A stretch of 64,000 nucleotides of DNA from Acidobacteriota bacterium. Its GTDB lineage: Bacteria; Acidobacteriota; Vicinamibacteria; Vicinamibacterales; Vicinamibacteraceae. Location: positions 1-64,000 of the forward strand of contig JADLFL010000051.1 in NCBI GenBank assembly GCA_020845575.1, given 5' to 3'. Below, one piece after another: positions 27,894-28,485 of the stretch. Position 1 is the first letter of the stretch. Each line of letters begins with the position of its first letter. The notes under the pieces are model-generated. The model searched no databases and was not told the DNA's origin. It saw only the letters and a list, made by a program, of their open reading frames with translations. A program made the translations under genes and the position numbers.

Positions 27894-27941
27894 ATGGGGG
27901 ATCAACGCCCCATTTCCAGATGTCCCGGCTTCAGAAATGGG
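27894..27941 (+). promoter_or_regulatory. Competing leader hairpins before the NusG-paralog gene
   Basis: ATGGGG (27894-27899) can pair with CCCCAT (27908-27913). Alternatively CCCATTTC (27909-27916) pairs with GAAATGGG (27934-27941). The two share bases and cannot form together. They lie directly upstream of the ops-like element. The 371-bp gap (27614-27984) also contains the terminator at its start; no clear sigma-70 promoter was found. Confidence 0.5.
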
Positions 27942-27949
27942 ACTGACGG

Positions 27950-27958
27950 GGCGGTAGC
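27950..27958 (+). promoter_or_regulatory. ops/JUMPstart-like element
   Basis: GGGGCGGTAGCACG contains the GGCGGTAGC core of the ops sequence, the site at which RfaH is recruited to paused RNA polymerase in polysaccharide operons. It is 26 bp before ATG 27985 of a NusG paralog, at the head of a long exopolysaccharide locus. Confidence 0.6.
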
Positions 27959-27984
27959 ACGGACGAAACTCTCAGAATTGACCC

Positions 27985-28485
27985 ATGCCAGACCTCGCCT
28001 GGTTCGCCCTTCGTGTCAAGCCCCGCGCCGAGCGCGTGGTGGCGGACGTGCTCGATGGAAAGGGGTATGAGTACTTCCTTCCCATGCACCGCGAGCGGCG
28101 CCGCTGGTCGGACCGCGTCAAGACGGTGGACACGCCGTTGTTCGCCGGGTACCTGTTCTGCCGTTTCGATGTGCAGTTCCGCCTGCCAATCCTGACCTCG
28201 CCGGGTGTCCTGCACGTGGTGAGCATCGGAAAGGTCCCGGAGCCGATCCCCGACGAGGAGATCGAGTCGCTGCAGGTGCTGACGCGGTCGGGCCTGACGC
28301 TCGAGCCGTGGCCGTTCCTCCAGATCGGGGAACAAGTCCGCATCGTGGCCGGCCCGCTCGCCGGCGCGGCGGGTGTCGTGCAATCGGTGAAGGACCGCGA
28401 TCGCCTGGTGGTCTCGGTCACATTGCTCCAGCGTTCAGTCGCCGTCGTCGTACCCGAATCGTGTCTATGGCCCGCCAGCGCGTGA
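27985..28485 (+). CDS. NusG-paralog transcription antiterminator (RfaH/UpxY-like)
   Basis: The 166-residue protein has an N-terminal NGN domain (LAWFALRVKPRAERVVADVL, YFLPMHRERRRW, LFAGYLFCRF) and a C-terminal KOW region (IGEQVRIVAGPLAGAAGVVQSV). Specialised NusG paralogs of this kind head polysaccharide operons and keep polymerase processive. The ops-like element in its own leader suggests that it acts on the operon it opens. No good ribosome-binding site was seen. Confidence 0.9.
   Translation: MPDLAWFALRVKPRAERVVADVLDGKGYEYFLPMHRERRRWSDRVKTVDTPLFAGYLFCRFDVQFRLPILTSPGVLHVVSIGKVPEPIPDEEIESLQVLTRSGLTLEPWPFLQIGEQVRIVAGPLAGAAGVVQSVKDRDRLVVSVTLLQRSVAVVVPESCLWPASA

Follow-up and report, generated by a model that had tools for sequence, protein, structure and literature searches.

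The window, a 64,000-nucleotide stretch of the genome of an Acidobacteriota bacterium, contains a gene for a NusG paralog at the head of a polysaccharide operon. The same-strand genes of this operon encode Poly_export (wza-like), Wzz/GNVR, Bac_transf, glycosyltransferase, DegT, GNAT/FemAB, Asn synthase and Wzy_C proteins. An earlier note on this DNA had described an ops-core match ahead of a NusG paralog heading a polysaccharide locus, and here coordinates, protein family (NCBIfam NF033644) and same-strand gene content agree with it. The features of the locus are as follows.

27665-27698, + strand: strong intrinsic terminator between the upstream PEP-CTERM gene and the leader
27922-27943, + strand: RNA stem GUCCC/GGGAC immediately 5' of the core, lineage-specific (halves GTCCC 27922-27926 and GGGAC 27939-27943)
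27938-27962, + strand: element 1, TGGGACTGACGGGGCGGTAGCACGG, an 8-nt-core (GGTA loop) variant of the NusG-paralog signal, recognised by ortholog identity and leave-one-out profile
27951-27958, + strand: core GC-GGTA-GC, predicted non-template-strand DNA mini-hairpin (ops positions G2-C9), from sequence, loop-confined variation and the ops structure (PMC5995543)
27960-27961, + strand: predicted pause C(-1) G(+1), equivalent to ops positions 11-12, with G-11 G-10 at 27950-27951
27985-28485, + strand: UpxY-type NusG paralog, NGN and KOW domains, 166 aa
28563-28579, + strand: stem CTGGTC/GACCAG abutting element 2, drawn from the sequence; the family does not conserve stems of this kind
28571-28594, + strand: element 2, TGTGACCAGAAGGGCGAAGCTACC, a variant with a 7-nt core (GAA loop), located after the paralog and before wza
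28634-54113, + strand: polysaccharide operon, annotated to 54113 (~26 kb)

Two elements flanking a NusG-paralog gene

The paralog scores 116 bits against the UpxY model NF033644 (cut-off 100), and it falls below the cut-offs of the RfaH family TIGR01955 (76 bits, cut-off 144.5) and of the LoaP model (55.8 bits, cut-off 125). The housekeeping NusG is encoded elsewhere in the same genome.

The ops-like sequence GGGGCGGTAGC is located at 27948-27958 on the forward strand, 26 bases ahead of the paralog ATG (27985), where it forms a piece of the larger 24-25 nt element 1 rather than an isolated 11-mer. The ops-like 9-mer alone is not significant (one match in the window, 0.56 expected), and GGGGCGGTAGC occurs one to seven times per genome in seven related genomes, more rarely than its reversed control. 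The significance of element 1 comes from its context, namely identity in orthologs and its rank with leave-one-out profiles: over both strands of the 64 kb (128,000 positions) the two best sites begin at 27938 and 28571. A chance match in a functionless leader would fit the expectation for the 9-mer, but a 21-nt context conserved in orthologs and the family-wide profile speak against it, and we regard this explanation as extremely improbable.

The single 11-nt site of the earlier note was thus incomplete, as the element spans 24-25 nt and its second copy, element 2, was overlooked. Element 2 has a leave-one-out score of 21.1 bits, which none of 1000 shuffles reached. The paralog gene has one element on each side. 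Element 2 was not found between the paralog and wza of the two same-genus relatives; the same 3'-side placement was seen at eight other loci (L208, L229, L235, L236, L244, L249, L251 and L254).

Conservation and distribution of the element

The sequence TGGGACTGACGGGGCGGTAGC is identical in the leaders of both same-genus orthologs (71% identity), and the leader of a more distant Terriglobia ortholog contains TGGGACTCGAATAGCGGTAGC. The remaining GGGGCGGTAGC copies in the ortholog genomes all lack the TGGGACTGACGGGGCGGTAGC context. Conservation in orthologous NusG-paralog leaders had been proposed in the earlier note as one check on its reading, with lack of conservation as the contrary outcome; the element is conserved.

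The wider family has the consensus TGKRASTSASAGGGCG(N1-2)AGCTRTG (24-25 nt). In Nitrospirota and across many families of Acidobacteriota it adjoins NusG-paralog genes; elsewhere it stands ahead of polysaccharide genes. Among 126 paralog leaders gathered by protein similarity, 24 scored above all 2520 null scores with a profile built without the tested sequence, although nine Nitrospira copies share one retained seed; seven of the 24 are Acidobacteriota leaders never used as seeds. With a model lacking this leave-one-out step, sites of at least 20 bits numbered 26 in the sense orientation, with none antisense and none reversed. The 7-nt-core form GCGNAGC is commoner than the ops-like 8-nt form.

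On the scale of whole genomes, the best match was the copy ahead of the paralog in 10 of 11 cases, a four-helix-bundle gene intervening in some of them; in the remaining genome (G424) it was an orphan copy ~1 kb before a NeuB/GDP-mannose dehydratase/DegT polysaccharide-type cluster. Matches were found in 50 of 148 Nitrospirota genomes and in 23 of 199 Acidobacteriota genomes. When 29 Nitrospirota loci were read, 17 copies were upstream of the paralog, seven shortly downstream and five without a paralog in range. The paralog was present in 18 of the 23 Acidobacteriota genomes with a match compared with 73 of 373 others (Fisher 1e-8, phylogeny ignored), paralog status being that of a 396-genome search of which the 199 genomes were taken to be part. 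A control model with reversed columns gave 10 matches, against 32 for the real one, and no association with the paralog (p=1). Because of this ratio, about a third of the genome-wide matches at E 0.15 may be due to chance. Several copies away from paralogs precede glycosyltransferase, Wzz, ABC-2 exporter, porin or carbamoyltransferase genes, and the weaker of these distant copies will include chance matches.

Two other explanations were considered. The element could serve to translate the paralog, as a ribosome-binding site and start codon (GAGGG...RTG): in many Nitrospirota copies RTG overlaps a potential start codon, shares the reading frame of the paralog and has GAGG near Shine-Dalgarno distance. 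However, copies persist with an intervening gene, on the 3' side of the paralog or ahead of genes other than the paralog, RTG is lacking in several (the window copies read ACGG and ACCC), and the upstream TGTRASTSA box would be left unexplained; a translation signal is in our judgement very improbable. Alternatively, it could be a double-stranded operator or an alternative-sigma (sigma-54-like, -24/-12) promoter for polysaccharide operons. The spacing TGGGAC-N5-NNGC fits in some variants, RpoN can control PEP-CTERM genes (PMC9850573), and one copy (L206) precedes a sigma-54 activator gene. Against this, no aligned copy has TTGC at -12, TGG at -24 is missing in 13 of 24, the conserved AGCTRTG sits further downstream, and the association with NusG paralogs is specific. 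We therefore give a promoter or operator little credence.

Several observations were made on other leaders. Two paralog leaders without the element (L082 and L085) both carry another conserved stretch, AATGTAAGACATAAGTAATGC. In the window's order, a second class of NusG paralog (L005-L031) follows a PPIase-like gene and has no element upstream, and at L208 an element copy lies just downstream of a paralog of this PPIase-associated class. At four Nitrospira loci (L033, L034, L044 and L038) a four-helix-bundle gene (23S rRNA insertion-type) separates the paralog from the element, which is at the head of the operon. Sigma-54 and sigma-70 promoters were also sought upstream of the copies, with no consistent match. 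The leaders of four plasmid-borne RfaH/UpxY genes (Alphaproteobacteria, Bacteroidota) gave no match to the profile. On an Agrobacterium plasmid, GCGATAGC (L258:769-776) precedes a gene annotated as rfaH by ~125 bases; it is not significant alone, and possibly represents an ops variant in Alphaproteobacteria.

The core, the pause frame and a proposed loading site

The conserved core of the element is GC-G-N(1-2)-A-GC. Following a 13-nt upstream box, nearly all strong matches have GCG(A/G)AGC or GCGNNAGC, in a scan set that was in part collected with the full profile. Variation in length and in sequence is confined to the loop, whose bases across the family are GT, AT, AG, TG or a single A or G, and the sequences of the copies are compatible with a hairpin closed by C3:G8. 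GCGAAGC has been described as a DNA mini-hairpin of very high stability (PMC10527192 and others). The core probably folds as an ops-like DNA mini-hairpin on paused RNA polymerase.

Element 1 has the pause frame G1 G2 ... Y11 G12 in its sequence, as GG/CG. In ops (GGCGGTAGNNTG core) the loop bases G5 and T6 are invariant; element 1 reads GGCGGTAGC-A-CG, with G5 and T6 present and C instead of T at position 11. Among distinct copies with the 7-nt core (triloop), YG is kept at ops positions 11-12 in 31 of 37, an extra base ahead of the pause thus making up for the shorter loop; in five 8-nt-core variants TG comes one base later. Element 2 has CC at positions 11-12, and the pause frame is absent.

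The observed basis for an interpretation comprises conservation, sense-strand polarity, association with the paralog and with polysaccharide genes, variation limited to the loop, and the pause dinucleotide. We think it likely that the element serves to load the NusG paralog in the manner of ops and RfaH. While transcribing the leader, RNA polymerase would pause at the consensus elemental pause GG...Y-1 G+1, and in the exposed bubble the non-template GC-G-N(1-2)-A-GC would fold as a GNA-triloop or GNNA-tetraloop DNA mini-hairpin to be read by the NGN domain of the paralog. Once loaded, the paralog would stay on the polymerase, displace NusG and, by countering Rho, pausing or terminators, keep the enzyme processive over the ~26 kb of the polysaccharide operon. 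The upstream box TGKRASTSASAG may offer a second contact, through upstream DNA or through the transcript as it leaves the exit channel. The pause, the hairpin, binding by the protein and antitermination are all predictions from sequence.

The copy before the paralog gene would constitute a positive autoregulatory layout, with a repeat between the paralog and wza. The earlier note had proposed autoregulated antitermination in a distant phylum; the conserved ops-like element and a layout that would allow autoregulation in cis are in keeping with this, whereas the hairpin switch that it included is not supported. Autoregulation is only one of several layouts, since copies also occur in trans. The mutually exclusive hairpins (GAGATGGGG 27891-27899, CCCCATTTC 27908-27916 and GAAATGGG 27934-27941) can be drawn in the window, yet orthologous leaders do not contain them, and the predicted fold of the leader is no more stable than that of shuffled sequences (z -0.12).

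The main rival to loading through a DNA hairpin is an RNA element as for LoaP, in which the paralog would bind a nascent hairpin or single-stranded box and GCGNAGC would be read as RNA. Stems abut the core in the window and at L032, L050 and L100, the upstream box would be passing out of the exit channel, and GNRA-like loops are stable in RNA too. LoaP itself uses an RNA hairpin (PMC12691694). However, the stems are lineage-specific and missing from many copies: the GTCCC/GGGAC stem is found in G000, G001 and G002, with an analogous stem in L032, and is not general in the wider family. A general RNA stem-loop as the signal was accordingly rejected. Moreover, the consensus-pause frame is kept, although an RNA hairpin acting alone would have no use for it, and Rfam searches returned no family at gathering threshold and none plausible at E up to 10. 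On balance RNA readout appears unlikely, albeit less so than the promoter or translation explanations.

Of the RfaH ops-reading residues, the paralog has K at K10, and V, G and P at H20, R23 and R73. Paralogs in general do not conserve H20, R23 and R73; they usually have a basic residue near K10, and a TRSRHEK motif is common instead of the RfaH contacts. Recognition, if any, would therefore be via other residues. In an AlphaFold2 model (pLDDT 92.8) the NGN domain matches ops-bound RfaH to 1.6-2.6 A and the KOW domain is predicted to be a beta-barrel, not alpha; because of this predicted beta form, RfaH-style autoinhibition is not indicated.

The loop differs among copies of one genome in G322 (GGTA, GAGA, GGA), G230 (GATA, GTGA), G138 (GGA, GGTA), G172 (GAA, GGA) and G250 (GGA, GAA), and does not in G398 (GAA, GAA). 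Such differences between paralogs of one genome suggest paralog-specific addresses. Tentatively, the loops might form a code in which each paralog reads its own loop, with no crosstalk between operons, although we hold this to be doubtful. Covariation between loop and protein at the RfaH contact positions gave hints only, confounded by phylogeny.

Relation to known NusG-paralog systems

LoaP of Bacillota and its dfn UNCG RNA hairpin resemble the present system in having a NusG paralog, a leader signal and a long operon. The LoaP signal consists of an RNA hairpin and involves no pause (PMC12691694), whereas here the conserved part is the pause-framed core and no RNA hairpin is conserved family-wide. 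The UpxY proteins of Bacteroides capsule operons share with the paralog the protein family (NF033644) and a gene that heads its operon, and the layout here would fit the antitermination by UpxY of its own operon. No comparable loading element was found reported for UpxY in the literature examined, and the recruitment of operon-encoded NusG paralogs has been stated to be unknown (PMC7593976). Literature on Acidobacteria and Nitrospira, from a search that left most subscription journals outside, yielded no relevant description of the element.

The likeness to ops/JUMPstart and RfaH of Gammaproteobacteria comprises a GGGGCGGTAGC core identical over 11 nt, a GC-GNNA-GC hairpin, YG in the pause frame at 11-12, long polysaccharide operons downstream and a partner from the NusG family. 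The likeness does not extend to JUMPstart proper, which the earlier note had joined to ops; only the ops core aligns (upstream match p=0.05, or 0.32 with shifts). The upstream box was also considered as a JUMPstart homolog (TGTAA, same spacing), and the resemblance was not significant. The system differs from ops/RfaH in that most relatives of the element use the shorter GCGNAGC core, and in its partner, which is of UpxY type, usually encoded beside the site, with the RfaH ops-reading residues not conserved and a KOW domain predicted as beta.

The best reading is a variant of the ops/RfaH loading principle in two phyla for which no mode of recruitment had been known. If this is true, readout of a non-template-strand hairpin would be a general way to load operon-encoded NusG paralogs, and a pause-framed DNA mini-hairpin, with a loop often shorter than that of ops, would be common to Acidobacteriota and Nitrospirota. 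The element would then provide a concrete, assayable sequence from which trans targets could be predicted in genomes and with which the idea of loop specificity could be tested.
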